NCBI GenBank assembly: GCA_945878725.1
Contig: CAMCTY010000001.1
Coordinates: forward strand, 124,001 to 188,000
DNA length: 64,000 nucleotides
Direction: 5' to 3'
DNA from: Bifidobacterium breve
Lineage (GTDB): Bacteria; Actinomycetota; Acidimicrobiia; Acidimicrobiales; Acidimicrobilacustridaceae
Shown: piece by piece, positions 3,624-7,856 of the stretch
Layout: each line of letters starts with the position of its first letter
How positions within the stretch are numbered: the first letter of the stretch is position 1
Notes under the pieces: generated by a model
The model's database searches: none
What the model was told of the DNA's origin: nothing
Seen by the model: only the letters and a program-made list of their open reading frames with translations
Made by a program: the position numbers and the translations under genes

Positions 3624-4091
3624 TCAGGACTCGATGTTTACGATCTCGACTTTGAGAACTCCGCCGGGAGCCTCGAAGTCGCAGATATCGCCAACCCGTT
3701 TACCCATAAGTGATTCACCGAGCGGGGAGCCAGGGGTGAGAACCTCGTGGTCGCCGCCGCGCTCCTCGATGGATCCGATGAGGAAGGTTTCGGCTTCGTC
3801 GTCACCCTCGTAACGGATTGAGACTGTGACACCAGGAGCAACTGTGTCGGAGGCAACGGCTTCGACGATCTCGGCATCAAGGAGCGTGCCCTGAATCTGG
3901 CGGATGCGGGCTTCCATCTTGCCCTGCTCCTCCCGAGCCGCGTGATAGTCGCCGTTCTCCGAAAGATCGCCCATTTCGCGTGCGGTCTGGATCTTTCGGG
4001 CGATCTCGACACGACCGTGGGTCGTGAGTTGCTCGAGCTCGGCGCTGAGTCGATCGTGGGTTGCTTGGGAGAGATGTTGGACGACAGCCAT
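3624..4091 (-). CDS. greA: Transcription elongation factor GreA
   Basis: 155 residues, full family length. The N-terminal coiled coil (residues ~5-75) carries the acidic tip GDLSENGDY that enters the RNA polymerase secondary channel and stimulates cleavage of backtracked RNA. The C-terminal FKBP-like domain ends with the typical SPLGESLMGKRVGD segment. On the coding strand a good -10-like TAACAT lies six bases before the ATG, so the mRNA may be leaderless. It is divergent from the branched-chain amino-acid leader and operon. Confidence 0.97.
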   Translation of the reverse strand: MAVVQHLSQATHDRLSAELEQLTTHGRVEIARKIQTAREMGDLSENGDYHAAREEQGKMEARIRQIQGTLLDAEIVEAVASDTVAPGVTVSIRYEGDDEAETFLIGSIEERGGDHEVLTPGSPLGESLMGKRVGDICDFEAPGGVLKVEIVNIES

Positions 4092-4163
4092 GGCGGAATG
4101 TTAGCGGTCGGGTCGGAAAATCCCGATATGGCCCTATGGATGGGCCGGGCTAAGGTGTTCTCA

Positions 4164-4202
4164 ATGTCGAGAAGGTGTTTTCCGGTCGTACTTATTCCCT
4201 AG
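4164..4202 (+). CDS. Branched-chain amino-acid leader peptide
   Basis: A 12-residue open frame, MSRRCFPVVLIP, starts at an ATG preceded by an AAGGTG ribosome site (4152-4157). Consecutive Val-Val-Leu-Ile codons (GTC GTA CTT ATT) precede Pro and a TAG stop. The stop overlaps the first of three hairpins in front of leuB. Leader peptides rich in the end-product amino acids are the classical sensor of ribosome-mediated attenuation, and here the codons match the products of the leuB-ilvE-cimA operon. The gene is inferred from codon content and position; translation has not been shown. Confidence 0.75.
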   Translation: MSRRCFPVVLIP

Positions 4203-4297
4203 CGCACGTCGTTTTTGACGTGCGCCCCTCGGCCGTCCACTCACGTGGGCGGCCTTGTTGTTGTATGCGCCTGTTGTAGCGGTCGTTGTAACGACCG
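4202..4297 (+). promoter_or_regulatory. Attenuator-like RNA leader with three hairpins
   Basis: Three strong hairpins follow the leader stop codon. Hairpin A: 9-bp perfect stem 4202-4210/4217-4225, loop GTTTTT. Hairpin B: 9-bp stem 4231-4239/4246-4254 with one G-U, followed by TTGTTGTTGT, which resembles an intrinsic terminator. Hairpin C: 7-bp stem 4280-4286/4291-4297, loop TGTA. The 5' arm of C (CGGTCGT) is repeated exactly at 4183-4189 inside the Pro-Val-Val codons of the leader, so the leader can compete for the 3' arm of C. The tail of A (4223-4227) can also pair with part of B (4247-4251). The leuB ribosome site GGAG is at 4317-4320. The exact switch is inferred. Confidence 0.65.
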
Positions 4298-4325
4298 TCC
4301 CGAGATCTTTTCCCCTGGAGCAAGA

Positions 4326-5306
4326 ATGAGCCACAGAATCGGTGTCATCCCCGGCGACGGAATCGGCCATGAGGTCATTCCCGAGGCGTTGAAGGTGATC
4401 CGGGCCGCCGGAGTTGAACTCGACTGTGTCGATTACGACCTCGGTGGAGCCCGCTACTTGCGCGATGGCGTGGTCCTGACCGATGACACCATCAACGAAT
4501 GGCGCGGACTCGATGCACTGTTGCTCGGCGCGGTTGGCACCCCAGATGTTCCGCCAGGTCTCATCGAACGAGGCTTGCTCCTCAAAATGCGTTTTGATCT
4601 CGATCTCTACATCAATCAGAGGCCGTTCATTGCGCCGGATGGATCACACAACTTCATCGTGATCCGCGAGAACACCGAAGGTACCTATGCCGGTGAGGGC
4701 GGATTCCTCCGCAAGGGAACCCCGTTCGAAATTGCGACACAGGGTTCGGTAAACACCCGCCACGGTGTCGAGCGTTGCGTCCGTTATGCATTCGGACTCG
4801 CTCAGAGCCGGGAGCGCAAACACCTCACGCTCGTACACAAGACCAACGTGCTGACGTTCGCTGGCGATCTTTGGGAGCGCACCTTTAACGAGGTCGCCCT
4901 CGACTTCCCGGACGTCACGACCGCCTACAACCATGTTGATGCTGCCTGCATCTACTTCGTTGAGAACCCGCAGCGTTACGACGTGATCGTCACCGACAAC
5001 CTTTTCGGCGACATCCTCACCGATCTCGGCGGTGCCGTTTCCGGTGGGATTGGATTCGCGTCCTCCGGCAATCTCAATCCCGACCGAACCAGTCCGTCGA
5101 TGTTCGAACCTGTTCACGGCTCGGCTCCCGACATTGCCGGTCAGGGGCGAGCAAATCCGATCGCCGCGATTCTTTCGGCCGCGATGATGCTCGACTTCCT
5201 CGGCGAGACCGATGCCGCCGCCCGCATCCAGGCCGCATGTTCTGACAGCGAACTACTCACCGGATCCACTTCTGAAATCGGCGACCTTGTCGCCGCTCGT
5301 CTGTAA
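4326..5306 (+). CDS. leuB: 3-isopropylmalate dehydrogenase
   Basis: 326 residues from the ATG at 4326, which has GGAG five bases upstream; an upstream in-frame ATG at 4215 would run through the attenuator and is rejected. It oxidises and decarboxylates 3-isopropylmalate to 2-oxoisocaproate using NAD. Family marks: IPGDGIGHEV at the N terminus, RENTEG near 117, the catalytic Lys in VHKTN near 179, the metal/NADP region VTDNLFGDI near 223, and EPVHGSAPDIAG near 263. In organisms with citramalate synthase the same enzyme usually also oxidises beta-methylmalate for isoleucine. It is the first gene of leuB-ilvE-cimA and the likely target of the leader. Confidence 0.93.
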   Translation: MSHRIGVIPGDGIGHEVIPEALKVIRAAGVELDCVDYDLGGARYLRDGVVLTDDTINEWRGLDALLLGAVGTPDVPPGLIERGLLLKMRFDLDLYINQRPFIAPDGSHNFIVIRENTEGTYAGEGGFLRKGTPFEIATQGSVNTRHGVERCVRYAFGLAQSRERKHLTLVHKTNVLTFAGDLWERTFNEVALDFPDVTTAYNHVDAACIYFVENPQRYDVIVTDNLFGDILTDLGGAVSGGIGFASSGNLNPDRTSPSMFEPVHGSAPDIAGQGRANPIAAILSAAMMLDFLGETDAAARIQAACSDSELLTGSTSEIGDLVAARL

Positions 5307-5320
5307 CCCAAGGGGAAACA

Positions 5321-6238
5321 ATGCCTATTACACCCACCGCAAAAATCTGGATGAACGGTTCGCTCGTCGACTGGGCCGACGCGCAGATCCACATTCTGAC
5401 GCACACGCTCCATTACGGAATGGGCGTTTTTGAAGGCGTGCGTGCTTACGAAACCTCGAATGGTCCGGCCGTGTTCCGGCTCACCGAGCACATGGAGCGA
5501 CTCCACAATTCCGCAAAGATCATGGGCATGGACATGCCCTACTCGGTTGACGAGTTGGTGGAGGCGACGAAAGCTGTTGTCCGAGCGTCCGGTCTTCCTT
5601 CGGCGTACATCCGTCCAATCGCGTACTACGGCTACGGCGAGATGGGTCTCAACACGCTTCCGTGCTCGGTCGATGTCGCTATCGCCTGCTGGCCATGGGG
5701 TGCCTATCTAGGTGAGGACGCGCTCTCCAAGGGCGTCCGCATGAAGATCTCGTCCTGGACTCGTCACGATCACAACACGATGCCTCCCGCGTCAAAGACC
5801 ACGGGCAACTACGTGAACTCGTCCTTGGCCAAGGTTGAAGCACTCAAGGCCGGATACGACGAAGCGATCATGCTGAACCCGCAAGGATTCGTCAGCGAGT
5901 GCACCGGCGAAAACATCTTCGTCGCCCGCGATGGCGTTCTTATTACCCCGCCGATCGCTGCAGGAGCGCTTGAGGGCATCACCCAAGACACTGTTGCCGC
6001 GATCGCCGACGAAATGGGCTTCGAGGTCCGGGTGGACTATCTCACCCGCAGCGATCTCTACGTTTGCGAAGAGATGTTCGTGTGCGGCACGGCGGCTGAG
6101 GTTTCGGCCGTCAACTCCGTGGACGATCGCACGATTCCGTGCCCCGGCCCCATGACAACAGCGATCGCCGAGGAATACGGGCGTGTCGTTCGCGGTCAGG
6201 TCGATCGCTACAAAGACTGGTTGGAGCATGTCAACTGA
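5321..6238 (+). CDS. ilvE: Branched-chain amino-acid aminotransferase
   Basis: 305 residues, class IV (fold type IV) PLP aminotransferase. It makes Leu, Ile and Val from their 2-oxo acids with glutamate. The PLP Lys is K159 in the ASKTTGNY context, and GFVSECTGENIF near 190-200 is the signature after it. It starts 14 bases after the leuB stop with AAGGGGAA as ribosome site and overlaps the next gene, so the three genes form one transcript. Alternatives in the family are D-amino-acid aminotransferase and aminodeoxychorismate lyase, but the operon context and motif support IlvE. Confidence 0.95.
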   Translation: MPITPTAKIWMNGSLVDWADAQIHILTHTLHYGMGVFEGVRAYETSNGPAVFRLTEHMERLHNSAKIMGMDMPYSVDELVEATKAVVRASGLPSAYIRPIAYYGYGEMGLNTLPCSVDVAIACWPWGAYLGEDALSKGVRMKISSWTRHDHNTMPPASKTTGNYVNSSLAKVEALKAGYDEAIMLNPQGFVSECTGENIFVARDGVLITPPIAAGALEGITQDTVAAIADEMGFEVRVDYLTRSDLYVCEEMFVCGTAAEVSAVNSVDDRTIPCPGPMTTAIAEEYGRVVRGQVDRYKDWLEHVN

Positions 6239-7856
6239 TCCTCGGGCGGAAACACCGATGCTTCCTGCATCGGTCGAGATCTTCGACACAACGCTGCGCG
6301 ACGGCGCCCAGTTCGAGGGCATCTCGCTGACCGTCGAGGACAAACTCCGCGTCGCCGAACAACTCGATTATCTCGGAGTTCACTGGATCGAAGGCGGCTA
6401 TCCGCAGGCCAATCCGAAGGACGAGGAGTTCTTCCGTCGTGCCCCGCTAGATCTCAAACTGAACACGGCGCAACTGGTGGCATTTGGTTCGACACGGCGA
6501 CCAGCCGGCAAGGTCGATGTTGATCCGACTCTGGCCGCGCTTGTGGGCGCCGGCACGTCGACGGTTTGCATCGTGGGCAAGAGTTGGGATTTCCATGTCA
6601 CTGAAGCGCTACGCACGACCCTCGATGAGGGTGTGGCGATGGTCGGCGAATCAGTTGCTTTCCTGAAGGCGGAGGGACTGCGCGTGTTCTTCGACGCGGA
6701 GCATTTCTTCGACGGCTACAAAGCCAACCCTGAGTTCGCTCTGCGGGTGCTTGAAGCGGCAATGGTGAACGGTGCTGATTGTTTGGTGCTATGCGACACC
6801 AATGGCGGCTCGCTGCCTCACGAAGTGCAGCGCATCACGTCGGACATCGTTACGTTCGTCGGATCAAGCGCTGGTGTTGGTATTCATACCCAGAACGATT
6901 CTGGTTGCGCCGTCGCCAATACGATTGCTGCTGTAGTCGGCGGCGCGACCCAGGTGCAGGGAACCGTCAATGGCTATGGCGAGCGCACCGGAAACGCGAA
7001 TCTCATGACCGTGGTTCCCGATCTCACGCTCAAACTCGGCGTAGCGACACTGCCCGAAGGTCATCTTGAGCGACTCACTGTTGTCAGCCACCGAATCGCA
7101 GAACTGGTGAACCTCCCACCTCATTCTGCTGATCCATTTGTGGGATCTTCCGCGTTTGCCCACAAGGGTGGCCTTCACACGTCAGCGCTCGGCCGGGCCG
7201 GTGGCGCAACGTATGAGCACATCAATCCCGCGATTGTGGGCAATCACACGCGTGTGCTCGTGTCCGATCTCGGAGGACGCGCGGGCATGTCGATGAAGGC
7301 GGCCGAGTTCGGACTCGAACTCGACGACCGCGCCGCAGGAGCGTTGTCGGAGGAACTCAAGCAACTTGAGTCCGAAGGCTGGTTGTTCGAGTCGGCCGAC
7401 GCGTCGCTCGAGCTGCGGATGCGCCGGGCGGCCGGCTGGAAGCATGACTCGTTTGAACTCGAGGAATACCGGGTAGCGAGTGTTCATCGGGCCTCGTCAG
7501 CTGGTGATGCGGGTACCGCCCTCGTTACGACAGAGGCGTCGGTTTCGCTCCGAGTCGGTGACGAGGTGCTCTCGTCCGTCGGTGAGGGCAATGGGCCGGT
7601 AAATGCACTCGATGATGCTGTGCGTCGAGCTCTCGACGGTCGGTTCCCGTCGCTGGCTCGGATTCATCTGACCGATTTCAAGGTGCGCGTTGTCGATAGC
7701 GGAGCCGCCACCGGTGCAGTTGTCCGGGTGCTTATCGATTCCACCGACGGTGAACGGGTCTGGACAACGGTTGGGGTCGACAGCAATGTCATCGAGGCGT
7801 CGTGGCAGGCGCTGATCGACTCGCTGCAGTTCGGCCTGCTCCACGCCGGGAGCTAG
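6228..7856 (+). CDS. cimA: (R)-citramalate synthase
   Basis: 542 residues from the ATG at 6228, which overlaps the ilvE stop by 11 bases; an ATG at 6258 is an alternative start. The HMGL-type TIM barrel begins with FDTTLRDGAQ and carries HTQNDSGCAVANT near 226-238 and NGYGERTGN near 253-262. The C-terminal half (from ~390) is a LeuA-type allosteric dimer domain. Length and the RDGAQFEGISLT opening fit the long citramalate synthase group rather than LeuA. It condenses pyruvate with acetyl-CoA, feeding threonine-independent isoleucine synthesis. Feedback by isoleucine through the C-domain is known for the family. Confidence 0.9.
   Translation: MSTDPRAETPMLPASVEIFDTTLRDGAQFEGISLTVEDKLRVAEQLDYLGVHWIEGGYPQANPKDEEFFRRAPLDLKLNTAQLVAFGSTRRPAGKVDVDPTLAALVGAGTSTVCIVGKSWDFHVTEALRTTLDEGVAMVGESVAFLKAEGLRVFFDAEHFFDGYKANPEFALRVLEAAMVNGADCLVLCDTNGGSLPHEVQRITSDIVTFVGSSAGVGIHTQNDSGCAVANTIAAVVGGATQVQGTVNGYGERTGNANLMTVVPDLTLKLGVATLPEGHLERLTVVSHRIAELVNLPPHSADPFVGSSAFAHKGGLHTSALGRAGGATYEHINPAIVGNHTRVLVSDLGGRAGMSMKAAEFGLELDDRAAGALSEELKQLESEGWLFESADASLELRMRRAAGWKHDSFELEEYRVASVHRASSAGDAGTALVTTEASVSLRVGDEVLSSVGEGNGPVNALDDAVRRALDGRFPSLARIHLTDFKVRVVDSGAATGAVVRVLIDSTDGERVWTTVGVDSNVIEASWQALIDSLQFGLLHAGS

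Follow-up and report, generated by a model that had tools for sequence, protein, structure and literature searches.

A probable leader-peptide attenuator upstream of leuB-ilvE-cimA, with relatives before leuB, cimA and ilvB in Acidimicrobiia

Described attenuators and the leuB locus

Leader-peptide attenuators of branched-chain amino acid genes are already known in Actinobacteria. The ilvB-II motif of Corynebacterium, as far as the cited part of its description goes (PMC10272879), resembles the locus reported here in having an upstream ORF rich in branched-chain amino acid codons and two stem-loops, the second a terminator with a U-tract, in front of a branched-chain amino acid gene. Its ORF spans most of P1 and an antiterminator involving the P1 loop is proposed there, whereas the ORF of our element ends at the base of the first hairpin (A), no antiterminator was found, and the targets are leuB, cimA and ilvB. 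The leaders of actinobacterial ilvB, leuA and leuS (PMC1262725, PMC8079986, PMC5784534) share with our element the branched-chain codons, in several cases the terminator, and leaderless transcription; however, their targets are ilvB, leuA and leuS, their peptides differ, and the cited portions of these papers name neither leuB or cimA leaders nor Acidimicrobiia. The enteric amino-acid attenuators, within the cited part of their treatment (PMC1183508), are similar in the run of regulatory codons, the terminator and the biased choice of control codons, with which the selective-charging theory deals. In the open-licence PMC literature we did not meet leuB or cimA as targets, occurrence throughout a class, or a layout of two hairpins fused to the leader stop; searches there returned no paper joining Acidimicrobiia with an attenuator and, for citramalate synthase combined with leader peptide and attenuation, nothing that we judged related.

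The locus lies in a stretch of 64,000 nucleotides, here called the window, and comprises the following features, upstream of which greA diverges:

4151..4156, + strand: candidate -10 box TAAGGT, ending 7 nt 5' of the leader start, with comparable spacing in relatives
4164..4202, + strand: leader peptide MSRRCFPVVLIP followed by a stop, probably leaderless (from relatives' leaders and the ORF, a 12-codon frame translated as M S R R C F P V V L I P, stop)
4185-4196, + strand: control codons GTC GTA CTT ATT, inside the leader
4202..4225, + strand: hairpin A, 10 bp (predicted fold, class-wide covariation)
4231..4264, + strand: hairpin B with a U-rich tail, resembling an intrinsic terminator (fold, terminator scan, covariation)
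4280..4297, + strand: hairpin C, predicted in the window and not conserved
4326..5306, + strand: leuB, 3-isopropylmalate dehydrogenase (NF002898)
5321..6238, + strand: ilvE, branched-chain aminotransferase (NF005146)
6228..7856, + strand: cimA, citramalate synthase (TIGR00977, searched with 6234-7856); start uncertain, 6228 being an in-frame ATG

The 12-codon frame with branched-chain codons, the three predicted hairpins and the leuB gene that follows them, all described in an earlier note on this DNA, are present in the window, and the 162-nt region is predicted to fold better than 200 of 200 shuffles (z -4.24). The first base of hairpin A is the G of the leader's UAG stop. Hairpin B, which the note had likened to a terminator, has a predicted stem at 4231-4254 and the tail TTGTTGTTGT, is conserved, and was the sole terminator-like site in a scan of 4080-4340 (1 versus a mean of 0.3 in shuffles). 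Of the parts of a ribosome-mediated amino-acid attenuator, the locus appears to contain a short ORF in which codons for the end products of the operon follow one another and, between the leader and the first gene, a putative intrinsic terminator whose U-rich tail is conserved. An Rfam 15 scan of the window reported two tRNAs only; nothing, T-box included, reached the gathering score at the element, where the one match below threshold (SdsR_RyeB, E 0.66) belongs to an unrelated family. The leuB frame stays open upstream to 4215, and in the window the leader is in frame with leuB. A read-through fusion of leader and leuB was considered and rejected: the spacing breaks the frame in relatives (L003 at -175, L008 at -178), so that we treat the shared frame as a coincidence, probably due to chance.

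Distribution and downstream genes

Of the 37 genomes searched from the window's family, 36 gave a LeuB match, although the match of G005 begins inside the gene at a contig end and that of G009 is only a 37% homologue. Conservation of the short frame in close relatives, proposed in the earlier note as a check, was borne out: among the 34 family loci with readable sequence before leuB, 27 show leader, stop, A and B there. The family leaders vary in their first half (e.g. MSTPSPRRSRSIVIIR, MRHRTTPVVVIIR, MSARQNAVIIIE) and have Ile at codon -2 in 27 of 27 cases. Seven loci are without the element: L009, L017, L018 and L019, which belong to the same genus as the window, and L030, L031 and L034, which share another genus. 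By eye, the former four carry a -10-like TAGGAT upstream of leuB and yet no leader, A or B, and look as if the attenuator had been lost and the promoter retained.

A covariance model (R1) built from 23 distinct rows (alignment A1) and used with a cut-off of E <= 0.001 matched 157 of 296 genomes of the class, 8 of them from the window's family, on which the model was trained, and gave no match in the other 139. In a sample of the phylum it matched 35 of 396 genomes, 11 of these outside the class and mostly weak. Reading of 127 further match loci, a subset of the class matches, revealed leuB downstream in 77, cimA in 23, ilvB in 23, and 4 remaining cases. The proteins downstream of the cimA-type elements are 51-62% identical to the window's CimA (BLASTP, 23/23), while those of the ilvB type are 54-94% identical to the IlvB of the window's own genome, plus that gene itself (BLASTP, 23/23); NCBIfam agreed for 4 of 4 partial cimA and ilvB proteins tested, one of them above the curated cut-off. 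Two loci lack a leader stop (L091, L109), one has neither an assigned gene nor a run of codons for Ile, Leu or Val (ILV; L110), and another has such a run, no start and no assigned gene (L080). Dereplication left 130 elements: 84 of leuB type, 23 of cimA type, 21 of ilvB type and 2 without a gene assignment. The window's own genome has a second, weak R1 match (E 0.025), outside the window, before ilvB (G000:C1:106862-106954; L038 1501-1593), with the leader MSIKVVPNSTLVVLN, its stop and two hairpins.

For 15 genomes with a cimA element, the region upstream of the best LeuB match was examined. In 12, which all belong to a single other family of the order (LeuB 74-78% identical), no leader with this type of hairpin precedes leuB, and two of these loci show ILV-like runs without it; the other three are little informative, the best LeuB match being only 43-44% identical. 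In the related family represented by L290-L301, leuB has no leader and the attenuator, with Ile-rich codons, stands before cimA. In several of these loci a -10-like box was seen by eye close before the leuB ATG, and leuB itself may be leaderless there.

Because R1 includes 24 leader columns, its matches lean towards ILV codons. Named genome contigs were therefore scanned with the terminator sequence alone, the leader being ignored, which yielded at least 118 stretches and returned 80 loci, with leuB downstream in 66 of the 80 among the matches listed. Nineteen of the 80 elements were already in the fetched set, and 47 of the 66 leuB-positive loci were new. The titles of the leuB-positive records mostly read Acidimicrobiia, Acidimicrobiales, Acidimicrobiaceae, Microthrixaceae, or Actinomycetota/Actinomycetes MAGs, with a few under other names (e.g. 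Acidobacteria, Burkholderiales); this agrees with the earlier view that the genome is of the Acidimicrobiia type and has a leader and terminator ahead of an operon beginning with leuB. Two of the leuB-positive records, L203 and L226, are from Candidatus Microthrix. For 14 loci no leuB was seen: the record titles of 11 name other taxa and 1 is an Actinomycetota record, while in the remaining 2 the sequence ends 2 and 117 nt past the element. As judged from these sequence matches, the element is spread far wider than the window and heads three types of operon (leuB, cimA and ilvB).

Leader codons and leader start

Codons -2 to -5 before the stop, taken across the dereplicated elements, were counted as cells. 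ILV codons occupy 295 of 336 cells in frame for the leuB type (n=84; 22 and 3 in the other frames), 87 of 92 for the cimA type (n=23; 15 and 1) and 83 of 84 for the ilvB type (n=21; 10 and 0), and all four codons are ILV in 49 of 84, 18 of 23 and 20 of 21 elements, respectively. On comparison of the sequences, the frame appears to be translated and its codons match the products of the operon, with Val and Ile before leuB (Ile 173, Val 119, Leu 3), nearly only Ile before cimA (Ile 85, Val 1, Leu 1 of 92) and Val and Leu before ilvB (Val 46, Leu 27, Ile 10 of 84). Codon -2 is Ile in 81 of 84 leuB-type and 23 of 23 cimA-type elements; the same place in the ilvB type holds Val 9, Ile 7 and Leu 5 times. 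Leu, one of the three amino acids in the window's Val-Val-Leu-Ile run, takes up 3 of 336 cells in 84 leuB elements, and the set of three amino acids is peculiar to the window. Likewise, we did not find the leucine run before leuA that marks a LEU element, given that Leu is this rare in the leuB-type cells and the first gene is leuB. The terminator-only scan agrees: when nothing but the distance to B was used to pick the leader stop of the 47 new loci, 46 of them could be read, and 152 of their 184 cells (codons -2 to -5) were ILV, versus 19 and 4 in the other frames, with Ile at codon -2 in 43 of the 46.

The choice among synonymous codons is also unusual. Of the 119 Val codons in leuB-type leaders, 47 are the rare codon GTA (39.5%, versus 4.2% in downstream ORFs), as are 32 of the 46 in ilvB-type leaders (69.6%, versus 1.7%), an enrichment of 9 to 41 times, while GTG is depleted in leaders; ATT accounts for 75 of 173 Ile codons in leuB leaders versus 11% downstream. 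The new loci of the terminator scan behave alike (GTA 34/47 Val codons versus 5.0% in downstream ORFs; ATT 41/104 versus 8.8%). The Fisher p-values for these comparisons ignore relatedness and overstate the certainty. Among 30 of the 38 tRNA matches in the window's own genome are tRNA-Val with the anticodons UAC, CAC and GAC and one tRNA-Ile(GAU). Since there is a separate tRNA-Val(UAC), selective charging of isoacceptors could account for the preference for GTA; it is probably not behind that for ATT, which would share its tRNA with ATC. An alternative for the codon choice is the low pairing potential of A/T-rich codons.

The leader start was taken as the nearest in-frame ATG or GTG at least 8 codons from the stop and could be assigned in 128 of 130 elements. 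In 62 of the 128, a hexamer resembling a -10 box has its end 6-10 nt upstream of the start, versus 0 and 3 in two control intervals, and 31 of these 62 also have a suitably placed -35-like hexamer, versus 4 when a control spacing is used; roughly half of the loci lack such a -10 match. Shine-Dalgarno-like motifs precede 15 of 128 leader starts, versus 11 of 128 in a control interval, compared with 29 of 39 leuB starts. The placement of the -10 boxes and the lack of a Shine-Dalgarno excess suggest that the leader is probably leaderless. The ribosome site that the leader had been thought to possess (AAGGTG, 4152-4157) overlaps the candidate -10 box and finds no support in these counts. A strict sigma-70 scan gave no promoter match at this place in the window and no -35 near TAAGGT, so that for the window's own genome the leaderless start is argued from the relatives. 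Leaderless leader peptides have been reported for ilvL, leuL1 and leuL2 of Streptomyces lividans and for ilvB of Corynebacterium diphtheriae, in the cited parts of the sources (PMC1262725, PMC8079986, PMC5784534).

Hairpins and the proposed mechanism

Compensatory changes in the stems, a further check named in the earlier note, are abundant. In 92 distinct leuB rows, whose alignment was fitted to the model, 98.4% of the cells pair and both sides have changed in 14 of 20 pairs (107 cells versus 35 in shuffles), including all 10 pairs of hairpin A; in 46 cimA and ilvB rows the same holds for 17 of 20 pairs (148 cells versus 41). By comparison, then, both hairpins are conserved as structures and B keeps the shape of a terminator. 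The arms of the leuB-type B (CCGUCCAC/GUGGGCGG, alignment A2, columns 64-73 with 95-105) change little in sequence and contain a U.G pair in 81 of the 92 rows, in contrast to hairpin A and the cimA and ilvB terminators, which covary. Two clean hairpins could be parsed in 93 of 130 elements, 92 of them with an assigned gene; counted from the first base of the stop, the start of A in these 92 lies at 0-4 nt and that of B 23-35 nt downstream, and A and B are 0-6 nt apart.

Hairpin C behaves differently. The segment CGGTCGT at 4183-4189 recurs at 4280-4286, in the 5' arm of C, and had been proposed to let a stalled ribosome change the partner of the 3' arm. However, among the 27 family loci just two have CGGTCGT in the leader, and the window itself is the one locus with both arms of C; in L002, the nearest relative (LeuB 98% identical), the 3' arm is absent. 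Hairpin C is, by this comparison, probably not part of a switch. Of the earlier proposal of ribosome-mediated attenuation, the kind of mechanism is probably right, given the frame, its codons and the covariation, while the switch through hairpin C is not supported.

An attenuation function is likely on the comparative evidence, and we regard it as highly probable that the element, with a leaderless leader, controls the leuB-ilvE-cimA operon through ribosome-mediated transcription attenuation, in which shortage of Val or Ile leads to read-through at B. Transcription would start at or next to the start codon of the leader, and a ribosome would begin on the leaderless short ORF. If Val- or Ile-tRNA is scarce, the ribosome would lose speed between codons -5 and -2. 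Once codon -2, which almost invariably encodes Ile, occupies the A site, the leading side of the ribosome would reach over the first bases of A, and RNA polymerase would then pass terminator B into leuB. If charged tRNA is plentiful, the ribosome would reach UAG and depart, A and B would fold, and transcription would end at B. We infer this geometry from a ribosome footprint, which reaches about 12 nt past the first base of the A site: a ribosome with codon -2 there should cover the RNA as far as roughly position +6, if the first base of the stop is numbered 0, as computed from this assumed value, and such a position fits the near-invariant Ile at -2.

The classical enteric model of attenuation includes a competing antiterminator. 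Applied here, it would have the stalled ribosome block A while the 3' arm of A and the 5' arm of B form an antiterminator by lineage-specific pairings, a reading we hold to be possible yet doubtful. With the 5' side of A masked and the 3' side of B not yet made, at least 5 cross pairs are predicted to form in 44 of 69 parsed leuB elements, and the predicted energy reaches -7.6 kcal/mol in the window and -9.9 kcal/mol in several sister sequences. However, the predicted pairs differ between the window and these sister sequences, and the duplex of the A 3' side with the B 5' arm is no better than in shuffles (median z -0.26 for leuB, n=69; 0.45 for cimA, n=17; 0.69 for ilvB, n=6). Against permuted stems (88 elements) it is, if anything, slightly worse (mean z 0.44 for leuB, n=69, and 0.97 for cimA, n=17; 0.28 and 1.06 with the B loop included), the ilvB type being hardly tested, as 2 of its 6 parsed elements were permuted. 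Equilibrium folding with the ribosome placed codon by codon leaves B formed at codon -2 (mean P 0.87 to 0.81, n=69), and B is still favoured in most elements. A search for a third register (5' side of A with the loop, 3' side of A with the spacer, leader with A or B) revealed no conserved full-length register: the best non-native one, between the end of the A 3' side plus spacer and the G-rich 3' arm of B, is 90% paired over 5 columns, compared with 97-100% over 7-9 columns for the native A and B, and we judge it to be probably chance arising from G-rich sequence. Thus, unlike in the enteric systems, an antiterminator mutually exclusive with the terminator was looked for and not found among the 93 of 130 elements that could be parsed. 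None of the four tests was supportive, and we keep attenuation by translation of the leader at high confidence while setting the antitermination step apart.

The stalled ribosome might instead act without any competing helix, through the tight succession of leader, stop, A and B, by kinetic, steric or pausing effects, with A and B kept from pairing with each other; we put this forward tentatively. The missing antiterminator raises the question of how a ribosome controls a terminator without one.

Two further explanations dispense with the ribosome as a sensor. It is very improbable that there is no response to amino acids, B being a constitutive weak terminator or a structure stabilising the mRNA and the ORF a by-product: four genomes of the same genus do without the element before leuB, but the frame-specific ILV conservation, the codons matched to the operon, the rare-codon enrichment and the covarying stems speak against it. 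A protein- or ligand-binding RNA akin to a riboswitch, with A and B as sensor and the ORF secondary, is very improbable: the conserved arms and U.G pair of the leuB-type B would suit it, but stem A covaries at all its pairs, the B sequences of cimA and ilvB differ and covary, no Rfam family reaches its gathering score at the element in the window, and the ILV codons would lack an explanation.

If ribosome-mediated attenuation holds, leuB and cimA would join the operons under leader-peptide control, across a whole bacterial class. With Val and Ile codons before leuB and almost only Ile before cimA, the codon code would have changed with the target gene, and such operon-specific codons make it possible to test directly to which tRNA each operon responds. 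Selective-charging theory was developed on E. coli, and the enrichment of GTA offers a case in which it can be tested by comparison.
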